Position numbers and translations under genes: made by a program
The notes under the pieces: generated by a model
Told to the model about the DNA's origin: nothing
Seen by the model: the letters and a program-made list of their open reading frames with translations, nothing else
The model's database searches: none
In this document: positions 10,126 to 26,803 of the stretch, in pieces
Layout of the letters: each line of letters opens with the position of its first letter
Position numbering within the stretch: the stretch's first letter is position 1
Assembly (NCBI GenBank): GCA_017623295.1
Contig: JAGAPK010000033.1
Span: forward strand, 124,001 to 188,000
Source: Lachnospiraceae bacterium
GTDB lineage: Bacteria > Bacillota > Clostridia > Lachnospirales > Lachnospiraceae
DNA length: 64,000 bases
Direction of reading: 5' to 3'

Positions 10126-10691
10126 TTTGATGTTATATGAGTATCTGTAGGGTGTATATATAGAAAACAATAGTAAAAAGAATGTTTTGCTGATAAGAAA
10201 ATTGTTTGATTTACATATGAATTTGTTGATTGTTCAGGAAAAGACTTTTTGTGTTTGCTAGCTATTTTTGTAATCCACTTCAATTCTATTCCTACGCAAA
10301 AAGCAGCAATTATTGTTCCTATTCCAACACTTCCGATATTATGAAGTAGAACTAGACAAGTGATAAGTGATACAACTACCATAGAGGCATCAAATACCAA
10401 TTTTACAGATGAAAATTTTTTGTTATATTTTTCTGATATAGCAAGCATTGCTCCTTCTCCGGCAAGAGGTATAAGATTAGTAGGTACATATAAATGTATT
10501 CCAAATGCAATCAAAAAGGTGCTTAAAATCATTAATGTTAAACGCACAGGCATTTTGTCCGGCAAATTCACAAAAGTCATTAAATAATTGCAAAAAGTTG
10601 TGAAGTAACCGAATACAACACCTACGAGTACTTGCAATAAGTTTTTTATTTGAAATTTTTTCCTTAAAATAAGAAGTTGAAGGGAGAAGTA
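10122..10691 (-). pseudogene. YczE/YitT-type membrane protein, 5'-truncated remnant
   Basis: Reading leftward from about 10691 the protein runs FSLQLLILRKKFQ, LLQVLVGVVFGYF, ILSTFLIAFGIHLYVPTNLIPLAGEG and KLVFDASMVVVSL, the C-terminal three-quarters of a YczE-like integral membrane protein (family about 200-220 residues). Upstream of the RKKFQ segment the frame enters the opposite-strand tautomerase gene and no homology continues, so the N-terminal span and start have been lost. The tail after about residue 190 is also unlike the family. No start codon with a ribosome site remains. Confidence 0.7.
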
Positions 10692-12412: not shown

Positions 12413-12455
12413 TTGATACACCGATTTTTCTGCGATATACTCCTTCAAAAGGAGT
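12413..12455 (+). promoter_or_regulatory. Integrase promoter with inverted repeat over -10 and ribosome site
   Basis: TTGATA (12413-12418), 17-bp spacer, TATACT (12436-12441). A perfect inverted repeat ACTCCTT-CAA-AAGGAGT (12439-12455) overlaps the -10 and contains the AAGGAG ribosome site of the recombinase gene. Confidence 0.6.
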
Positions 12456-12463
12456 GTGCGCTT

Positions 12464-13435
12464 ATGGGTAAAGAAATTTATAACATTATCAATGATATGG
12501 CAGAGGTATTAAATGCATCGCAAATACAGAAACTACAAGAGGTGCTGGTAAAATGGTTGTCTGAAAATAACGTATCTGACTATTTGCAAACAACTAATGC
12601 AGAATTTCTGGATATGTTTTTAACAGCAAAGCATTTAGAAGGATGTTCTGACAAAACGATACGCTATTATAGGTGTAATATTGAAAAAATGCTCGAAACA
12701 ATAAATATTCCGGTAATAAAGATAACAACTGAGATGCTACGAAAATATCTTGTAGAGTATCAAACGATAAATAATTGTGGGAAGGTAACTATTGATAACA
12801 TTCGTAGGAGTCTTTCCACATTCTTTTCTTGGCTGGAGGAAGAGGATTATATAATAAAAAGTCCGATGAAAAGAATTCACAAGGTAAAAACAGCAGTAAT
12901 TGTAAAGGAAACTATTCCTGATGAAAAAGTTGAGATTCTAAGAGATAATTGTAGTAATTTGCGTGATAGGGCAATGATCGATTTTCTGCTTTCAACAGGG
13001 ATACGTGTAGGAGAATTAGTTCGGTTGAATATTGATGATATAGATTTTTCTGAACGTGAGTGTGTTGTTTACGGCAAGGGAGATAAGGAAAGAAAAGCAT
13101 ATTTTGATGCAAAAACTAAATTGCATTTAATGAATTATATTGAATCGAGGACGGATAATAATATTGCGTTGTTTGTATCGTTAAATAGACCACATAAAAG
13201 GCTTACTGAAAGTGGAGTTGAACTACGTCTTAGAGAAATGGGTAAGAAATTGGGAGTAGAAAAAGTACATCCTCACAAGTTCAGGAGGACTATGGCTACC
13301 AGAGCAATAGAGAAAGGAATGCCGATAGAGCAGGTGCAGAAGATACTTGGACACGAACAGATTGATACGACACTTAGATATGCTATGGTGAATCAAAATA
13401 ATGTGAAGTTATCACATAGAAAGTATATTTCATAA
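12464..13435 (+). CDS. Tyrosine recombinase (XerC/D-like integrase)
   Basis: 323 residues. N-terminal SAM-like DNA-binding domain (about 40-140) and C-terminal catalytic domain with the full set: Arg181 (TGIRVGEL), Lys205 (GKGDKER), His271 and Arg274 (HPHKFRR), His297 (ILGHEQ) and nucleophile Tyr306 (TTLRYA). It cuts and rejoins DNA at specific sites. It is unlike the conjugative-element integrase at 18908 and has no excisionase beside it, so it may belong to an older island or act on local inversions. AAAGGAG lies about 9 bases before ATG 12464. Confidence 0.9.
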   Translation: MGKEIYNIINDMAEVLNASQIQKLQEVLVKWLSENNVSDYLQTTNAEFLDMFLTAKHLEGCSDKTIRYYRCNIEKMLETINIPVIKITTEMLRKYLVEYQTINNCGKVTIDNIRRSLSTFFSWLEEEDYIIKSPMKRIHKVKTAVIVKETIPDEKVEILRDNCSNLRDRAMIDFLLSTGIRVGELVRLNIDDIDFSERECVVYGKGDKERKAYFDAKTKLHLMNYIESRTDNNIALFVSLNRPHKRLTESGVELRLREMGKKLGVEKVHPHKFRRTMATRAIEKGMPIEQVQKILGHEQIDTTLRYAMVNQNNVKLSHRKYIS

Positions 13436-18907: not shown

Positions 18908-20107
18908 GTGGGAAAATCGTTAACAGGAAAAGAATTAGGACAAGGCATAACGCAGAGAAAAGATGGTAGGTTTCAAGCGAGGTTTACAAATCGATTTGGG
19001 AAGCGTCAGACAATCTACGGAAAAACTATAAATGAAATCCGTCAGAAACTTCGTACAGAGCAGTATGAGGATGAAAAGCAGATAAATGTAGTCAGTTCCG
19101 ATATGACGCTGGATGAGTGGTTTGAAATCTGGATGAACACTTGTAAGAACAACTGCCGTGATACATCAAGGCATACTTATAGAGTTTCCTACAATCGTAT
19201 CAAAGAAAGTCTTGGCTGGCGTAAACTGAGTGGACTTAATCTAATCGTGATGCAACAGGCAATCAATGAACTGAAAACGGATGCATCCCGAAAAGATACC
19301 AAGAAACTCTTAGTTGATATGCTGAACAAGGCAATTGATTCTGACTTACTACATAAGAACGTAGCAAAGCAGATAAATACGGTTGTAACGAAGGATAGCA
19401 CACCGGAGGAACCAAGGGTGCTGACCATCGAAGAAACAGAGTGGTTTTTAGAAGCTGCTTCACATTACCGCTATTTTAACGAGTTTAGCCTTGCCTTAGA
19501 AACTGGTATGCGTATCGGAGAAATCATAGGTCTCAAATGGTCAGATATTGATTTCGCAAATCGGACGATATACGTCAATCGAACTTTGGTATATATCAAG
19601 TCAGACGATAAGGATAGTCCAAACTTTGGCAAATGGGGATTTGAATTTCATGAGCCAAAGACGGACAAGGGCAGACGAAAGATACCGATGACTTTGAAAG
19701 CGTATCAGATATTAAAGAGACAGCTACTCTGGAAGCGTGGCGTTGAAGCAAAAGGTTACAAAGCACCGGAGGGCTTTGAGGACTTGGTGTTTACTACGAC
19801 GAAGAATACACCAATCAGTCCAAGAGACACAACAGTAGTAATGAAGTATATCTTTAAAAGGATTGCTTTAAAAGAACCACAATTTAAGCCGTTATCACCG
19901 CATACACTTAGGCACACATTTGCAACAAGGTGTATAGAGAGGGGCATGAACCCCAAAACATTGCAGATTATTCTGGGACATTCTACAATCCAAATCACAA
20001 TGAATCTCTATTGCCATGTAACAGACGATATGCTCATATCTGAAATGAGCAAGTTTGAAGCAGGAGCAAATAATGACAATCAACAAATTGGTGTCAAAGT
20101 GGTGTAA
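18908..20107 (+). CDS. int: Tyrosine integrase of a Tn916/Tn1549-like element
   Basis: 399 residues, the length of Tn916-type integrases. N-terminal arm-binding domain (about 1-60: ITQRKDGRFQARFTNRFGKRQ), core-binding domain (65-165) and catalytic domain with Arg near 201 (TGMRIGEI), the HTLRHTF box near 332, LGHS, and nucleophile Tyr near 368 (MNLYCHVT). AAGGAAG precedes the GTG start at 18908. It is intact, so it could still act on attachment sites if these remain. It ends 50 bases before the terminator that separates the element from the two-component operon. Confidence 0.92.
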   Translation: MGKSLTGKELGQGITQRKDGRFQARFTNRFGKRQTIYGKTINEIRQKLRTEQYEDEKQINVVSSDMTLDEWFEIWMNTCKNNCRDTSRHTYRVSYNRIKESLGWRKLSGLNLIVMQQAINELKTDASRKDTKKLLVDMLNKAIDSDLLHKNVAKQINTVVTKDSTPEEPRVLTIEETEWFLEAASHYRYFNEFSLALETGMRIGEIIGLKWSDIDFANRTIYVNRTLVYIKSDDKDSPNFGKWGFEFHEPKTDKGRRKIPMTLKAYQILKRQLLWKRGVEAKGYKAPEGFEDLVFTTTKNTPISPRDTTVVMKYIFKRIALKEPQFKPLSPHTLRHTFATRCIERGMNPKTLQIILGHSTIQITMNLYCHVTDDMLISEMSKFEAGANNDNQQIGVKVV

Positions 20108-20269: not shown

Positions 20270-20941
20270 ATGTTTAAGATATTGGTAGTAGAAGATGATA
20301 AAGATTTGAATCAGACTGTGTGTACCTATCTGAAGGGAAAAGGCTATGAAGCGATTGGCTGTCTGTCTGCGAATGATGCCTATAATGAGATGTATGGAAG
20401 TCTTTTTGACATGATTATATCCGATATTATGATGCCACAGATTGATGGATATGAATTTGCAAGGACAGTTCGTGAAATGAATCAGGATATTCCGATTCTA
20501 TTCATGACTGCCAGAGAAGATTTTGAATCCAAGAGAAAAGGCTTCGGCGTAGGAATTGATGATTATATGGTAAAGCCGATTGATTTAGATGAACTTCTTT
20601 TAAGAATTGAGGCGCTTCTTCGAAGGGCGAAGATTGCCACAAATCGGAAACTTACCATCGGAAGTACGGTGCTTGATATGGAAGAACATTCTGCTTATGT
20701 GGGCGAAGAAGAAATACCGCTTACCGTAAGGGAGTTCAATATTTTGTATAAACTTTTATCCTATCCGAAGAAAACGTTTACCCGTTCACAATTGATGGAC
20801 GAATTCTGGGATGTAGAGTCTGCATCCGGTCCGAGAGTGGTGGATGTGTATATGACGAAGCTTAGAGATAAGTTCAAAGAGTGTGAGGATTTTGAAATTG
20901 TAACAGTGCACGGACTTGGATATAAGGCGGTGATTAAATGA
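20270..20941 (+). CDS. OmpR-family response regulator
   Basis: 223 residues. Receiver domain (1-115) with acidic pocket VVEDD, phospho-acceptor Asp52 (MIISDIMMP), Thr80 (FMTARE) and Lys102 (YMVKP). Winged-helix DNA-binding domain (130-222: PLTVREFNILYKLLSYPKKTFTR, GPRVVDVYMTKLRDK, VHGLGYK). It is phosphorylated by the kinase encoded 4 bases into its own 3' end (ATGA overlap). TTAACA direct repeats in its promoter suggest autoregulation, and similar boxes before the 23467 gene suggest that it drives the membrane module. Confidence 0.93.
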   Translation: MFKILVVEDDKDLNQTVCTYLKGKGYEAIGCLSANDAYNEMYGSLFDMIISDIMMPQIDGYEFARTVREMNQDIPILFMTAREDFESKRKGFGVGIDDYMVKPIDLDELLLRIEALLRRAKIATNRKLTIGSTVLDMEEHSAYVGEEEIPLTVREFNILYKLLSYPKKTFTRSQLMDEFWDVESASGPRVVDVYMTKLRDKFKECEDFEIVTVHGLGYKAVIK

Positions 20942-21990
20942 GAGGCAGAGCAAAAATAAACGGTATCTGGCAGTTTGTAGTATTTTTTCTGTTGATTGCA
21001 TTTGTGGTTACTTGTAATTTTCTTTTGTTTCTAAATTCCATGGATTTAAATGAAACGGCAGTCAGAGATGCAGCGCCGGTTACGTTTGTGAATATTTTGT
21101 TGCTTACGGTGATTTTTGGTGTGTTTGATGCGATTCGCAGGAAACAGATGATTTCGAAGCCGGTGAAAAGGATTCAAAGTGGGATTGACCGGGTAATCAA
21201 GGGTGATTTTTCTACCAGAATTGAATATATCTATGGTGAGAATAGTGAAAATGAATTTGATATGATTATTACCGGACTCAATCAAATGATTGAGGAACTT
21301 TCCGGTGTGGAAACATTACGAACAGATTTTATTGCTAATGTTTCCCATGAATTGAAGACACCGCTTGCAGTGATGCAGAACTATGGAACGTTGCTTCAAA
21401 ACCCGGAATTGAATGAGGAAAAGAGAATTGAGTATGGAAAAGCAATACAGGAGCAGACAAAGCGATTGTCCAATCTGGTAATGAACATTTTGAAATTGAA
21501 TAAGCTGGAGAATCAGCAGATTTATCCGAATGTGGAAAAATATGATCTGGGTGAACAAATTTGTGAATGTATGTTGGAATTTGAGTCAGTATGGGAAGAA
21601 AAAGAGATCGAAATAGATGTGGATATGGCAGAAGAAATTCAGGTTGAAGCAGATAAAGAACTGCTTAGTCTTGTTTGGAATAATCTGTTGTCGAATGCAC
21701 TGAAATTTACGGATGCGGGCGGAACGGTATCACTTTCGCTGCATGGAGATGATGCTTTTGCATATGTTCAAGTAAAAGATACCGGATGCGGAATGAGCGC
21801 AGAAACCGGAAATAATATTTTTAAGAAATTTTATCAGGGAGATACTTCCCATGCCACGAAGGGAAATGGTCTTGGACTTGCTTTGGTAAAAAGAGTGATA
21901 GATATATGCGGCGGTGAGATAGCAGTAAGCAGTAAGCTTGGCGAAGGAAGTACTTTTACAGTCAAGTTACGGAGGAACATCAATGGATAA
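20938..21990 (+). CDS. Sensor histidine kinase
   Basis: 350 residues. Two membrane spans (about 12-33 and 48-65) leave an outside loop of only about 14 residues, too small for a ligand domain, so the signal is likely sensed in the membrane. HAMP (66-118), HisKA with phospho-His137 (NVSHELKTPL), ATPase domain with N box (NNLLSNALKF), G1 box DTGCGM and G2 box GNGLGLALV. This short-loop design is common among envelope-stress sensors, in line with the membrane genes downstream. Start overlaps the regulator stop (ATGA). Confidence 0.93.
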   Translation: MRGRAKINGIWQFVVFFLLIAFVVTCNFLLFLNSMDLNETAVRDAAPVTFVNILLLTVIFGVFDAIRRKQMISKPVKRIQSGIDRVIKGDFSTRIEYIYGENSENEFDMIITGLNQMIEELSGVETLRTDFIANVSHELKTPLAVMQNYGTLLQNPELNEEKRIEYGKAIQEQTKRLSNLVMNILKLNKLENQQIYPNVEKYDLGEQICECMLEFESVWEEKEIEIDVDMAEEIQVEADKELLSLVWNNLLSNALKFTDAGGTVSLSLHGDDAFAYVQVKDTGCGMSAETGNNIFKKFYQGDTSHATKGNGLGLALVKRVIDICGGEIAVSSKLGEGSTFTVKLRRNING

Positions 21991-22888
21991 GTGGAAAAAA
22001 ATTGGTAAGATATTGCTGTTTCCGCATGTCATACTGATTTTCTTTTTAGTTAATATATCGGTTGTTTTACTCGCCTATGCTTTTTGCGACGGGACTTGTC
22101 CGGAAATAGTAGCCTATATTTCTTATTTTGTATCGGCTTATACACTTACCGTAGTCTGTGCACGAATGCCGGGAATTTTTAAAAGAGTAAAAAGAGGATT
22201 GTATAGCAATAGATATGCCAATCGTTATCTGACCGAAAAAGAATTGCGTATCCGTATTTCTTTATATGGTGGACTGCTGTTGAATATTGCTTTTGCAATA
22301 TTTAAGGTTATAATGGGGGTTTTGTATCAATCGAAATGGCTTTTTGCAATGGCGGGTTATAATACAATTCTAAGTGTAATGCGATTTGTTCTGGTATATC
22401 GGGATCAGATAAATTTACACAACGAGAGCGATTATGAAAGAAAGATGCAGGGATTACATAGCTATAAGGTATGTGGCTGGTTAATGATTTTGCTCAATAG
22501 TGCAATTTCAGTTATTGTGATGATAGTAGTATTTGGTAATCAGACGATTGCATATCCGGGATATATGATATATGCGATTGCGGCGTATGCGTTCTACTGT
22601 CTAACAATGGCAATTATCAATCTGGTAAAATATTGGCATCGTGAGAACCCGATTTTTTCAGCGGTCAAAAGAATAGGCATGGCAAAAGCGCTGGTGTCCA
22701 TTTTTACATTGCAGGTTGCTATGCTTACACAGTTTGGAAATTCGGGCAGTAATGATAACCGGATGGCGAATGCTATGACAGGTATTGCAGTATGCGTGTT
22801 TATCACGGTTATGGCGGTGCTTATGTTAAAAGGCGTTAAAACAGACTACGCATACATGAAACAGGAAAATACAAAAGGGAAAGAATGA
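21983..22888 (+). CDS. Hypothetical multi-span membrane protein
   Basis: 301 residues with about 8 hydrophobic spans; family not recognised. The ATG at 21983 overlaps the kinase stop by 8 bases and has GGAGGA 6 bases upstream, so it is translated with the kinase. A charged loop (about 65-95: RMPGIFKRVKRGLYSNRYANRYLTE) separates two membrane blocks. Its place directly behind a short-loop kinase suggests an accessory sensor, but this is inference. Confidence 0.75.
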   Translation: MDKWKKIGKILLFPHVILIFFLVNISVVLLAYAFCDGTCPEIVAYISYFVSAYTLTVVCARMPGIFKRVKRGLYSNRYANRYLTEKELRIRISLYGGLLLNIAFAIFKVIMGVLYQSKWLFAMAGYNTILSVMRFVLVYRDQINLHNESDYERKMQGLHSYKVCGWLMILLNSAISVIVMIVVFGNQTIAYPGYMIYAIAAYAFYCLTMAIINLVKYWHRENPIFSAVKRIGMAKALVSIFTLQVAMLTQFGNSGSNDNRMANAMTGIAVCVFITVMAVLMLKGVKTDYAYMKQENTKGKE

Positions 22889-23300: not shown

Positions 23301-23369
23301 AAGATAATTTTGGCACTCTGGTTTATGTAAATCAGGGTGTTTCATTTTATTATGGAAAAAAGTAAAATT

Positions 23370-23421
23370 AACATTTCGTAAACATTTCCCGAACATTTCT
23401 CAAACAATAAAGGGTTACTAT
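23370..23421 (+). promoter_or_regulatory. Triple AACATTTC direct repeat at 11-bp period, with -10
   Basis: AACATTTC begins at 23370, 23381 and 23392, exactly 11 bp apart, with a fourth partial AACA at 23403. The last AACA half-site ends at 23406, 9 bp before a -10 TACTAT (23416-23421), the same gap as in the regulator's own promoter. This is the layout of an activator site for an OmpR-family protein. Confidence 0.75.
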
Positions 23422-23466: not shown

Positions 23467-23850
23467 ATGGAAAAGAAAAATTTTATTATTTTAATTATGA
23501 GCGTAATCGGAGGTATGTTATTTTCACTGGGTATGTGTATGTGCCTGATACCGGAATGGGGAACGTTCAATCAGGGTGTTGTGTTGGGCGTGATTGGTGC
23601 AGTTGAACTTCTTATCACATGGATTGTATATCGCAAGATGTCCGGCAAACAGCCAGTGAAATTAAATCTAAAAATGGTTGGAAAAGTTATTTACGGTATT
23701 TTCGCAGCATTGGTATTCGGTGTGGGAATGTGCATGACAATGGTATTTGAAAATATGATGATCCCTGGAATCGTTGTTGGTATTGTAGGCATTGTATTAC
23801 TTCTTTGCTTGATTCCAATGTGTGTAGGATTAAAAGACAGTAACAAATAA
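23467..23850 (+). CDS. Four-span membrane protein with two Gly-Met-Cys hairpins
   Basis: 127 residues, built as an internal duplication: hairpin one (GGMLFSLGMCMCLIPEW, GVVLGVIG) and hairpin two (AALVFGVGMCMTMVFEN, GIVVGIVG). The same module is found once each in the flanking genes at 22926 and 23887. AAAGGAG lies 9 bases before the ATG. It is the first gene after the 11-bp repeat promoter and therefore heads the inducible part of the module. No function is known; the conserved Cys residues within the membrane are notable. Confidence 0.8.
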   Translation: MEKKNFIILIMSVIGGMLFSLGMCMCLIPEWGTFNQGVVLGVIGAVELLITWIVYRKMSGKQPVKLNLKMVGKVIYGIFAALVFGVGMCMTMVFENMMIPGIVVGIVGIVLLLCLIPMCVGLKDSNK

Positions 23851-23886: not shown

Positions 23887-24273
23887 ATGGAAGACAAGGT
23901 AATAAAAGAAGAGAAAAGATTTGAATATACTTATTCGGCAAGTCAACAGAAAGAGGTTGAGGAGATAAGAAAAAAATATCTTCCAAAAGAAATAGATAAA
24001 ATGGAAATGCTGAGAAAGCTTGATAAAGATGCTGAGAAACCTGGTATGATTGCAGCATTAACATTTGGCATCGTTGGAGCAATGCTTTTGGGAATAGGAA
24101 TGTGTTGTACGATGCTATGGAAAGATTATGTCTTTGTATTGGGAATTATAGTAGGAATTATGGGCATAGCAATATTATCTGTTGCCTATCCGGTGTATAA
24201 GAAAGTAACCATGAAACAAAGAGATAAAGTTGCAGAACAAATATTAAAACTGAGTAATGAACTCACCATATAA
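23887..24273 (+). CDS. Two-span membrane protein, paralogue of 22926
   Basis: 128 residues, aligned along its length with the 22926 protein: FEYTYSASQQKEVEEIRKKYLPK, MEMLRKLDKDAEKPG, then GIGMCCTMLWKDY between two spans, and VAYPVYKKVTMKQRDK at the end. The ribosome site is weak (GGGAAAGATG upstream). It lies 36 bases after the 23467 gene in the same apparent operon. Duplication of the gene on both sides of the inducible promoter is unusual and suggests that one copy is basal and one induced. Confidence 0.8.
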   Translation: MEDKVIKEEKRFEYTYSASQQKEVEEIRKKYLPKEIDKMEMLRKLDKDAEKPGMIAALTFGIVGAMLLGIGMCCTMLWKDYVFVLGIIVGIMGIAILSVAYPVYKKVTMKQRDKVAEQILKLSNELTI

Positions 24274-24304: not shown

Positions 24305-24565
24305 ATGGCAAAATCAAAATTAGCAGCAATGAATAAGAAAATTGAAGAAAGTGTAGTTGGTGGATACAAAAAAATCGAAAATGGCGTAGTTGGCGGATTT
24401 CAGAAAATTTCAGACAAATTCGTAGATAGCTACCTGACAAAGGATGGCGAATCCATAGAAGAAGCCAAAGAAAGAATTGCGAGAGAACAAAGTGAAAGAA
24501 CTAAAGAACACGAAGACATGATTAAAAAAAATCTGGAAGCGAGTCTCAATGCGGGTAGAAGATAA
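24305..24565 (+). CDS. Small protein with 11-residue amphipathic repeats (short form)
   Basis: 86 residues, no membrane span. Two 11-residue units, KIEESVVGGYK (12-22) and KIENGVVGGFQ (23-33), are followed by KISDKFVDSYLTKDGESIEEAKERI. The sequence matches the longer relative at 26203. Repeats of the type KxxEGVxxxxx form 11/3 amphipathic helices in alpha-synuclein and apolipoproteins and lie on anionic membranes. Membrane binding here is inferred. AGGAG lies 9 bases before the ATG; the gene is directly upstream of cardiolipin synthase. Confidence 0.8.
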   Translation: MAKSKLAAMNKKIEESVVGGYKKIENGVVGGFQKISDKFVDSYLTKDGESIEEAKERIAREQSERTKEHEDMIKKNLEASLNAGRR

Positions 24566-24579
24566 GAAAGTAATTGTGT

Positions 24580-26145
24580 ATGAAGAAGAAAATCGTTATT
24601 TATGACCAAAATGGTGCCAAAGAACAGGAAGTAAATTATATACCGGTTCGCTTTATAATCGCTATTTTACTTATTGTACTGGAAACACTGGCAGTTTTAG
24701 CAATGACAATACTTTGTGCGATTTATATTCCATATTTTTATCTGGCGATGTATGCAACTGAGATTTTCTGTGTTCTGAAGATTATCAATTCCCAGGAAAA
24801 TCCGGATTATAAAATTCCGTGGCTCCTTTTCGTCCTGGTTGTTCCGGTTGCCGGATTTATGATTTACTTTATGTTTTATAATAGAAAACTCTCTAGGAAA
24901 CAGATAAAAAGGACAGAGAAGATCAAGAATCAGTTAATAAACACAAAAGATGAAGCAACTCTTAAAAAGTTGGAGCAGGAAGATAAGCAGGCGTACTTAC
25001 AAGCCAATCTTTTGCGCAAGTTGGCAACGACACATGTATATCAAAATACAAACATGACTTATTTTGATATGGGAGAAAAGCTGTTTGCAAGTATGCTTGA
25101 GGATCTGCAAAAGGCTGAGAAATTTATTTTCTTGGAATATTTTATTGTGGAAGAAGGCAGATTCTGGAACAGCATATTGGATATCTTAAAAGTAAAGGCA
25201 GCAAACGGTGTTGAAGTACGGGTAATTTATGATGACATTGGATGTATGTGCACTTTGCCGGGGAATTATTATAAAACACTAAGAGATTATGGCATCAAGG
25301 CAGTTTGTTTTTCACGGTTGAGAGGACAGGCAAATAATGAATTTAATAACCGCAGTCATAGAAAAATTATGGTCATTGATGGAAAAGTGGGATATACAGG
25401 TGGTGTAAATATTGCAGACGAATATATCAATGAAAAGCTCCTGTTTGGAGTCTGGAAAGATGTGGGGATTCGCTTAGAAGGTGAAGCGGTGACACAGTTA
25501 ACTTCCATATTTCTTGAGGATTATGAGTTGAATGTAAAAACTCCGGTGGCAGACTTTAGTCTGTATTACAAAAGTGGCACCTCCGTAGCAGATGAAGGCT
25601 ATGTCATTCCTTTTGGTGATGGTCCGAATCCGATGTATAAGCATCGAGTTGCCAAGATTATGATTATGAATATGTTGAATCAGGCACAGGATTATGTTTA
25701 TATGATGAGTCCGTATCTTATTATCGACAATGAACTATGTCAGGCGATTGAGAATGCCGCAATGCGAGGCATTGATGTAAGAATCATTACACCACACATT
25801 CCGGATAAGAAGGTTGTTTTTGTAATGACCAGAAGTTATTATAAAAGGCTTATGGATGCAGGAGTAAAGATTTATGAGTTTGAGCCGGGGTTTGTCCATG
25901 CGAAAGCATATCTATCCGATGATAAGTATGCAATTGTAGGAACGATAAATCTTGATTACAGAAGTCTTGTACATCATTTTGAGAATGGTGTCTGGATGTA
26001 TAAGCATGAGGTTCTGAGCCAGATTAAAGAAGATATGGAAGGAACGATGAAACAGTCCATAGAAATGTCGGATGATTTGATAAAGAATACGCTATTACAA
26101 CGATTCATCAGAGCAGTGGTAAGAGTTTTTTCACCAATGTTATAG
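24580..26145 (+). CDS. cls: Cardiolipin synthase (phospholipase D type)
   Basis: 521 residues. Two N-terminal membrane spans (about 24-45 and 65-105 region), then two PLD domains with HKD motifs: HRKIMVIDG near residue 260 and HAKAYLSDD near 440, each followed by GxxN (GGVNIADEYI; GTINLDYRS). It joins two phosphatidylglycerols to make cardiolipin and glycerol at the inner membrane. ATG 24580 was taken rather than the TTG at 24574; the ribosome site is weak. Its position between two amphipathic-repeat proteins in an apparently regulated operon points to membrane remodelling under stress. Confidence 0.92.
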   Translation: MKKKIVIYDQNGAKEQEVNYIPVRFIIAILLIVLETLAVLAMTILCAIYIPYFYLAMYATEIFCVLKIINSQENPDYKIPWLLFVLVVPVAGFMIYFMFYNRKLSRKQIKRTEKIKNQLINTKDEATLKKLEQEDKQAYLQANLLRKLATTHVYQNTNMTYFDMGEKLFASMLEDLQKAEKFIFLEYFIVEEGRFWNSILDILKVKAANGVEVRVIYDDIGCMCTLPGNYYKTLRDYGIKAVCFSRLRGQANNEFNNRSHRKIMVIDGKVGYTGGVNIADEYINEKLLFGVWKDVGIRLEGEAVTQLTSIFLEDYELNVKTPVADFSLYYKSGTSVADEGYVIPFGDGPNPMYKHRVAKIMIMNMLNQAQDYVYMMSPYLIIDNELCQAIENAAMRGIDVRIITPHIPDKKVVFVMTRSYYKRLMDAGVKIYEFEPGFVHAKAYLSDDKYAIVGTINLDYRSLVHHFENGVWMYKHEVLSQIKEDMEGTMKQSIEMSDDLIKNTLLQRFIRAVVRVFSPML

Positions 26146-26202
26146 AAAATGGAAAATATTAATAAATAATAAAAAATATAAATGATAAAGGAGAAGAGAA
26201 CA

Positions 26203-26466
26203 ATGGCAAAATTTGAAGAATTCAACAAGAAAATTGAAGAAGGCGTAACAGAAGGATACAAGAAAATCGAGGAAGGCGTAGTGGATGGCTACAAAAAGAT
26301 TGAAGAAGGTGTTGTATCCGGTTACAAGAAAATTGAAAATGGTGCAGTAGAAGGTTTCCAGAAGGTATCTGATAAGTTTGTAGACAAATTTTTTACAAAA
26401 GAAGGCGAATCCGTTGAGGATGCTAAGAAACGTCTGGAAAAAGGAATCAATAAAGAAACGGAATAA
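26203..26466 (+). CDS. Small protein with four 11-residue synuclein-like repeats
   Basis: 87 residues. Four tandem units: KIEEGVTEGYK (10-20), KIEEGVVDGYK (21-31), KIEEGVVSGYK (32-42), KIENGAVEGFQ (43-53), then KVSDKFVDKFFTKEGESVEDAKKRL. In DNA these are 33-bp repeats at 26230-26361. The pattern K-x-x-E-G-V at period 11 is that of alpha-synuclein. A long 11/3 amphipathic helix lying on anionic lipid such as cardiolipin is the natural model. AAAGGAG lies 9 bases before ATG 26203; an ATG at 26182 lacks a site. It directly follows cls. Confidence 0.82.
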   Translation: MAKFEEFNKKIEEGVTEGYKKIEEGVVDGYKKIEEGVVSGYKKIENGAVEGFQKVSDKFVDKFFTKEGESVEDAKKRLEKGINKETE

Positions 26467-26516: not shown

Positions 26517-26756
26517 ATGGGTGCAGATGTTAAGACAATTGGAAAAACAACATTAAAAGTAGCAGGAGCAGCCTGCGTAGCAACAGGCATTGTAGCGGCC
26601 AGCGCGGTTATTGCAAGTGGGGCAGCAGTCGGTTCCATAGCAGAAGGCTTCAAAGCAGCGAAAAAAGCGGTTGCAGATATGTTTCATTCACCAACTGATG
26701 AGGTAGTAGACGTGGCAGAGGAAAGTGAAAAAGAAGTTGCTAAAGAAGCAGAATAA
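26517..26756 (+). CDS. Small Ala/Gly-rich single-span protein
   Basis: 79 residues. A hydrophobic, Ala- and Gly-rich segment (about 8-42: LKVAGAACVATGIVAASAVIASG) is followed by an amphipathic stretch (SIAEGFKAAKKAVADMF) and an acidic tail. AAGGAG lies 10 bases before ATG 26517; the ATG at 26490 has none. It is the last gene of the membrane module, 50 bases after the long repeat protein and 11 bases before the terminator. Function unknown. Confidence 0.72.
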   Translation: MGADVKTIGKTTLKVAGAACVATGIVAASAVIASGAAVGSIAEGFKAAKKAVADMFHSPTDEVVDVAEESEKEVAKEAE

Positions 26757-26767
26757 GAAAGAGTGAG

Positions 26768-26803
26768 GGCTGTGAGAATAAAATCTCACAGCCTTTAATA
26801 TTT
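26768..26803 (+). terminator. Terminator of the membrane-stress module
   Basis: Perfect stem GGCTGTGAGA (26768-26777) / TCTCACAGCC (26784-26793) followed by TTTAATATTTT. Confidence 0.85.

Follow-up and report, generated by a model that had tools for sequence, protein, structure and literature searches.

Two small proteins, A and B, are encoded on either side of a cardiolipin synthase gene (cls) in a 64,000-nucleotide (nt) stretch of a Lachnospiraceae contig (JAGAPK010000033.1; the window, to whose positions all plain coordinates refer). Both are built on tandem 11-residue units and belong to a family, here called SYN, which recurs beside the same membrane and signaling genes and behind the same type of promoter box. 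We regard it as probable that these genes form a membrane-stress system of the LiaIH/Psp kind, in which a synuclein-like amphipathic effector coats or stabilizes the membrane.

SYN homologues were detected in 33 of 194 genomes, including the window's own (E <=0.001). A scan of genome contigs returned at least 310 SYN stretches, the best 80 of which serve as named loci (L numbers); the record titles of these 80 point to Lachnospiraceae, Oscillospiraceae and other Clostridia or Firmicutes. A phylum-wide sample gave matches in 9 of 398 genomes, the own genome included, or in 8 after removal of a low-complexity repeat in G518 (L126), and the family is thinly spread across the phylum. Its consensus is MAKSKLVKANEKIAEGVVGGYKKIEEGVVGGYKKIEEGAVGGFNKIADKFVDNFLTKEGESVEEAKERL. 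With the degenerate last unit counted, 19 of 97 members have three units, 74 have four and 4 have five, which argues against a chance pattern. Length changes by insertions in 11-residue steps, since in the 93 members that start with MA or MS the aspartate of the terminal unit lies at position 36 (9 members), 47 (79) or 58 (2), or else at 45 (2) or 56 (1) where two fewer residues precede the repeats. No Pfam or NCBIfam family covers SYN proteins over its cut-off; the four NCBIfam families found among 45 scanned members were each matched by at most three of them, none plausibly, and among the papers listed by the literature searches none seems to describe the family, as far as titles and the beginnings of abstracts tell. 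At two loci (L078:3169-3831 and L114:10001-10570) the repeats run in frame into a C-terminal domain resembling SnoaL/NTF2, a likeness that is weak and below the Pfam cut-off in the first case (E 0.034) and seen by eye in the second.

A sequence-only reading of the window had described two span-less proteins with KIEEGVxxGYK repeats around cls, and this description holds: hydropathy predicts no membrane span in A or B, the units lie where they had been placed, and the gene between them is a genuine cls. In protein A the units KIEESVVGGYK and KIENGVVGGFQ (24338-24403) are followed by a degenerate third, KISDKFVDSYL, and in B four units (26230-26361) are followed by a degenerate fifth, KVSDKFVDKFF; both degenerate units keep the register. 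The same reading took the units of B for 33-bp DNA repeats. Their position is correct, but they are repeats of the protein rather than recent repeats of the DNA: units 1-3 share 67-76% DNA identity, and as synonymous differences (pS 0.64-1.29) far exceed nonsynonymous ones (pN 0.08-0.17), the units are old, with the protein pattern held by selection. The genome encodes a third paralogue, shorter than A and B, on a separate contig (L007:344-873, contig C53), directly followed by a protein that by eye resembles GA, the small protein behind B (583-873); no cls was found within about 2 kb of sequence there, and the genome-wide box search gave no match at that place.

Conserved partners and promoter box

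Neighboring genes were counted by profile and BLAST searches in the 38 of the 80 loci with at least 9 kb on each side of SYN; these loci are related and the counts are not independent. The small membrane protein TM127 lay near SYN in 34 of them, the membrane protein M316 in 31, a response regulator (RR) in 24, a histidine kinase (HK) in 25 and an intact cls in one. If no flank length is demanded, the corresponding numbers are 68, 52, 44, 45 and 1 of 80. The sequence-only reading had missed the conserved partners, TM127, M316 and the RR-HK pair; linkage to cls is not supported as a rule. Across the 194 genomes SYN and TM127 co-occur in 29, SYN stands alone in 4, TM127 alone in 6 and neither is found in 155 (Fisher p 2e-24); TM127 is therefore present in 29 of the 33 SYN genomes, and one of the six TM127-only genomes (G017) retains a 40-residue SYN remnant. 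Among the seven genuine members outside the order of the source genome, for which 2-3 kb of sequence was available, TM127 is found in five and M316 in four, with the order TM127-M316-SYN in three.

Sequence comparison with solved structures gave no credible relative of M316 or TM127, and the Pfam scan of M316 no match over the cut-off. MCM and G-x-G-M motifs, each part of a pair of hairpins, are invariant across twenty sequences of TM127 and its relatives, and TM124, encoded twice in the window, shares the hairpin. At L228 (G015) the complete series box-SYN-TM127-M316-RR-HK is present with shortened genes, an apparent decay or an assembly fault.

Intramembrane-sensing histidine kinases have two transmembrane (TM) helices with a loop of less than about 25 residues between them. 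By simple hydropathy the window HK has this layout (two helices, loop of 19 residues), and two helices were found in 41 of 45 related kinases, with loops of 6-28 residues (median 19, few above 25). The RR scores best with PhoB-type models, yet far below the PhoB/PhoR cut-offs.

The promoter box, with the consensus TTAAYATTTCnnAAACAaaanTCAAACATTnnnnAAACAAT, consists of four A-rich units at 11-bp spacing and is followed by a -10-like TATtcT; the sequence-only reading had not mentioned it. In a loose form it was found at most 300 nt upstream of SYN in 52 different sequences from 109 loci (at least one of them, L110, poor), and also before TM127 in the window. At up to three mismatches, the own genome holds a single match, 60 nt before TM127, with none in the reversed control, and 100 shuffles of the window gave no match. 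The 33 SYN genomes contain 41 sites in 26 genomes, compared with 3 in the reversed control. On reading, 24 of these precede SYN or TM127, 3 precede RR-HK, 2 precede M316 (one by position only), 1 precedes cls and 1 an Mbeg1-like gene; 4 lie elsewhere and 6 belong to an apparently different palindromic element. SYN-negative genus mates, also 33 in number, yielded 8 sites, spread over 6 genomes, against 3 in the reversed control; 7 of the 8 precede cls or module genes, intact or decayed. A matrix derived from 48 SYN promoters, which renders the SYN counts partly circular, found 121 sites in the 80 loci and 1 in reversed sequence. Module genes follow 104 of the 121: SYN 53, TM127 22, M316 20, TM124 6, RR 2 and GA 1, that is, 51 sites before genes other than SYN.

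As the box also precedes M316-RR-HK, the circuit looks autoregulated; this and the proximity of the genes suggest that RR binds the box. An extract of PMC9019756 describes the PHO box of Streptomyces coelicolor as 11-bp direct repeats. The PhoB/PhoP systems thus share with the SYN system the direct repeats and the type of regulator model that fits best, and differ from it in the low score of RR against PhoB/PhoR, the short-loop kinase and the membrane genes that form its targets.

Two observations were made in the course of the box searches. The Mbeg1-like (lipase-related) gene of G102 (L164:313-1872, minus strand) lies about 60 nt behind a SYN-type box. The palindromic element, TTAACATTTCnnAAACAAATGTTAAACAGGGAAAAGAAA, is distinct from the box and occurs in six genomes (L168, L169, L170, L171, L172 and L173), where several copies lie near genes that by eye resemble restriction, ATPase/helicase or integrase genes.

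A candidate membrane-surface effector

Over 373 units of the 97 members the hydrophobic moment has its maximum at 98 degrees, and AlphaFold predicts for protein B one helix over residues 2-63 (62 residues) and another over 71-86, with a mean pLDDT of 87.3 and a pTM of 0.48. The repeats are free of proline in all 97 members. The period-11 amphipathic pattern, for which a check of helical periodicity had been suggested, is thereby supported. Moments of A and B are 0.48 and 0.49; Table 1 of PMC5889406 lists 0.30 for alpha-synuclein, calculated somewhat differently. A passage of the same paper ascribes to perilipins and exchangeable apolipoproteins 11-mer repeats that form 3-11 helices on lipid. 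SYN shares such 11-mers, yet has no family match over the cut-off. One N-extended SYN protein (L010:1366-1878, minus strand) resembles the Apolipoprotein A1/A4/E domain weakly and does not reach the cut-off (E 0.0021). Literature searches turned up no lipid-binding test of SYN.

We propose that SYN would be a stress-induced cytoplasmic protein of the membrane surface, largely unfolded in solution. On the inner leaflet each molecule would adopt a single long 11/3 amphipathic helix, and there SYN would coat or stabilize damaged membrane alongside the co-expressed TM127 and M316. The dedicated short-loop kinase, of the intramembrane-sensing type, would sense membrane damage and phosphorylate the PhoB/OmpR-type RR; this in turn would bind the 11-bp repeats and induce the TM127-SYN unit, joined in many genomes by the M316-RR-HK unit. 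The computations establish the family, its periodicity, the conserved partners, the box with the genes behind it and the separate cls clade; binding of the box by RR, damage as the signal, membrane binding by SYN and its protective function are what we infer. According to a section of PMC8144471, LiaI serves as the anchor of LiaH, and PspA binds through an amphipathic helix. The SYN system, whose control by RR-HK is presumed from their nearness in 24 of 38 loci and from the shared box, would resemble LiaIH/LiaRS and Psp in its two-component control and in the pairing of a membrane protein with an effector at the membrane surface; here, in contrast, the effector is an unrelated repeat protein (PF04012, PspA_IM30, matched none of the 97 members at E <=0.05), and GA has only a sub-threshold LiaI-LiaF-TM match. 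The idea that SYN stands in for PspA was dropped, as PspA scores over its cut-off in 15 of the 33 SYN-positive and 17 of the 33 SYN-negative genomes.

Several results weigh against a stress system of this kind. PspA is as common with SYN as without it; RR and HK lie near SYN in only 24 and 25 of the 38 loci, and the box is assigned to RR by proximity only. No box at up to three mismatches was found in 7 of the 33 SYN genomes, nor any in the 2-3 kb around the seven members outside the order. SYN is also dispensable, as box and TM127 occur without it in G006, G021, G040 and G088, and the whole module without it in G006, G040 and G088. The moment peak is reached by 4.9% (Eisenberg) or 3.6% (Fauchere-Pliska) of 20,000 position permutations and is for this reason modest evidence when taken alone. 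Finally, the net charge of the repeats has a median of 0 (5-95% range -2 to +3, n=97).

It seems unlikely, although conceivable, that SYN instead has a regulatory role, with a helix that binds to M316, TM127 or the kinase and adjusts two-component signaling, a function that LiaF and PspA have in other systems. SYN genes lie near RR-HK and M316, the box before M316-RR-HK points to autoregulation, and at seven loci (L029, L095, L096, L098, L101, L104 and L120) one uninterrupted reading frame spans M316 and SYN, although SYN may be initiated separately. The position of SYN, usually first or second behind the box, its duplication in the genome, its variable unit number and its absence from three otherwise complete modules are nevertheless more effector-like. 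The continuous frames were rejected as proof of tethering: that of L029 crosses its own box and a stretch resembling a ribosome site, and in the five cases of Oscillospiraceae type a GGAGG is retained ahead of the SYN ATG.

We find it improbable that SYN is a soluble right-handed hendecad (11/3) coiled coil or scaffold. Such a structure would equally fit the 11-residue steps, the hydrophobic stripe and the continuous predicted helix, but three of the eleven positions are mostly glycine (57, 55 and 68%), and the mean helix cost of the consensus unit exceeds the mean of all residues (0.59 vs 0.48 kcal/mol, proline excluded), which disfavors a stable helix in water. Apart from the regulator, moreover, the conserved partners are membrane proteins.

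Cardiolipin synthase and the likeness to synuclein

The cls of the window is an equivalog of TIGR04265 (332.9 bits vs a cut-off of 290), with two PLDc_2 and two PLDc stretches. The suggestion that A and B are made together with it agrees with the layout found here, one predicted operon headed by the box. In the 33 SYN genomes, a cls match sharing a contig with SYN and no more than 10 kb away from it was seen in 2 (the own genome and G113, where cls holds a stop), and with an intact copy near SYN in 1 of 38 loci, cls was discarded as a conserved partner of SYN. The operon most closely related to that of the window, at L083, has intact SYN and TM127 genes, and its cls retains, in frame, no more than a few residues from either end (10274-10453), through a real deletion or an assembly fault.

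Upstream regions were surveyed for 45 cls genes, namely L048 and 44 of 48 cls matches (set aside were the window's own, a partial match, one that was too short and one that was not retrieved). Only one, in G018, has a box of its own, with a score of 39.1 vs a maximum of 5.5 in 1800 shuffles; it lies on a different contig from SYN. In G023, a genome with no SYN detected, a box is followed after about 35 nt by a cls gene, and this cls shares 84% identity with the G018 gene along the matched part. In L048 the box is followed by M316, a 433-residue gene and then cls. A tree of 26 rows, from which the G023 gene was left out, groups the cls genes of the window, G018 and L048 together (99/96); the remaining 23, among them the second cls of the genome, fall outside this clade, and the long branch of the window gene makes its placement less sure. 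Boxed in the window, G018, G023 and L048, of one clade in the three of these that the tree includes, and reduced to a remnant in L083, cls is, judged from sequence, truly part of the regulon, though an optional one, and its link to SYN is real but occasional. In these few genomes, the own included, the same switch would also make a dedicated cardiolipin synthase, and lipid remodeling and protein coating would be induced together. As summarized in part of PMC7157781, the two-component system EdsRS turns on cardiolipin synthesis after envelope damage. To the extent of that text it offers a precedent for induction, with a two-component system and a cardiolipin synthase, and differs in that cls is optional in the SYN system. 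We know of no synuclein-like effector in the EdsRS system.

The earlier interpretation that SYN specifically senses or organizes cardiolipin from a neighboring cls finds its basis in the shared predicted operon, the boxed cls of G018, G023 and L048 and the separate clade. We give it little credence, because cls is near SYN in a single locus of 38 and preceded by its own box in one of 45 cases, intact SYN accompanies a cls remnant in L083, and G023 combines box and cls with no SYN detected. The repeats are near-neutral as well, and such a charge does not predict a preference for cardiolipin; selectivity for cardiolipin or for anionic lipids finds no support in these data.

Synucleins are small, span-less proteins with a long acidic C-terminal tail, disordered in solution and helical on acidic vesicles. 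A profile of 373 units places the tandem units of SYN in K-x-x-E-G-V register, and the Pfam family Synuclein (PF01387) is the most frequent of 13 families matched at E <=0.05, with 12 of 97 members, followed by Tsr0524-like with 7. The best match (L011, E 2.9e-4) reaches 21.5 bits, below the gathering score of 23.3. With L009, phmmer returned 18 PDB sequences at E <=10, all of them alpha-synuclein (best E 0.39); the alignment is ungapped over 63 residues with K-x-x-E-G-V in register. None of ten register-permuted controls matched Synuclein at E <=1; of their five parents, window B, L022, L076 and L009 match it weakly and L027 does not. None of eight divergent or extended members matched either, and a profile of 13 SYN members did not find synuclein at E <=1, which speaks against a strong signal.

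SYN and synucleins have in common the tandem K-x-x-E-G-V units, the period-11 amphipathic helix and aligned repeats free of proline, and both are small and span-less. Unlike synucleins, SYN has Ile where synuclein carries Thr, has Tyr or Phe at position 10, and has near-neutral repeats and a short helical C-terminal motif rather than a long acidic tail (the charge behind the repeats is -1 in A and B, the family median in total +1), and it is bacterial and part of a regulon. The synuclein likeness claimed before thus survives as a similarity of register in part of the family, below threshold and without membership in Synuclein, and this real resemblance is most likely convergent. True homology with vertebrate synuclein, for instance by ancient transfer, is scarcely credible: however frequent the Synuclein matches are and however uniform the PDB matches of L009, all Synuclein matches stay below the gathering score, the 13-member profile and the divergent or extended members miss synuclein, and short repeats readily converge.

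We speculate, with less than even confidence, that the synuclein solution was invented twice, and that gut Clostridia have a stress-inducible, length-tuned K-x-x-E-G-V 11/3 helix that coats damaged or cardiolipin-remodeled membrane, with its own sensor and sometimes its own cls. The analysis defines a family that has no name in Pfam or NCBIfam and a Clostridial regulon with a likely dedicated sensor, a promoter recognizable by its 11-bp repeats and membrane effectors without a match to PspA or LiaH, to whose switch a separate cardiolipin synthase clade appears to be tied. As a bacterial synuclein analogue, SYN would make the role of an 11/3 helix at the membrane approachable by deletion, and for gut biology it offers a concrete candidate for synuclein-like sequences from gut-associated bacteria. 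Should a gut-bacterial protein come near enough to the alpha-synuclein register, cross-reaction or co-assembly in the host would be worth testing, although this is a very long shot.

Layout of the window locus

The genes discussed lie on one strand (Table 1). Two terminator-like hairpins bracket what is predicted to be a single unit of TM127, TM124b, SYN A, cls, SYN B and GA; the consensus scan that found them returned 10 hairpins where 3.4 were expected, and its hits are not proof of termination. Between 18000 and 32000 no known RNA family reached its gathering score.

Table 1. Features of the SYN locus in window coordinates
Feature	Position	Strand	Basis
RR, OmpR/PhoB-type response regulator, 223 aa	20270..20941	+	PF00072, PF00486
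HK, sensor histidine kinase, two TM helices, 19 aa between	20938..21990	+	PF00512, PF02518, HAMP; hydropathy
M316, multi-TM membrane protein, in frame with SYN in some relatives	21983..22888	+	neighbor counts, alignment
TM124a, small protein, two predicted TM helices	22926..23300	+	hydropathy
Terminator-like hairpin ending the RR-HK-M316-TM124a unit	23312..23341	+	consensus scan
Promoter box, four units spaced 11 bp, TTAACATTTCGTAAACATTTCCCGAACATTTCTCAAACA	23368..23406	+	pattern search
TM127, four predicted TM helices, most conserved neighbor of SYN	23467..23850	+	locus counts; hydropathy
TM124b, relative of TM124a	23887..24273	+	TM127 profile matches TM124a and TM124b
SYN protein A, 86 aa, two clear units plus a degenerate third	24305..24565	+	repeat analysis
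cls, cardiolipin synthase, two PLD domains, groups with G018 and L048 cls	24583..26145	+	TIGR04265; tree
SYN protein B, 87 aa, four clear units plus a degenerate fifth	26203..26466	+	repeat analysis
GA, small Gly/Ala-rich protein, one predicted span; start possibly 26490	26517..26756	+	hydropathy
Terminator-like hairpin ending the box-headed unit	26764..26797	+	consensus scan

GA weakly matches two families below the cut-off, one C19orf12-like (E 0.023), the other LiaI-LiaF-TM/PspC (E 0.049). Two genes that by eye resemble integrases of the tyrosine recombinase type lie at 12413-13435 and 18908-20107, the second of which ends just upstream of RR.

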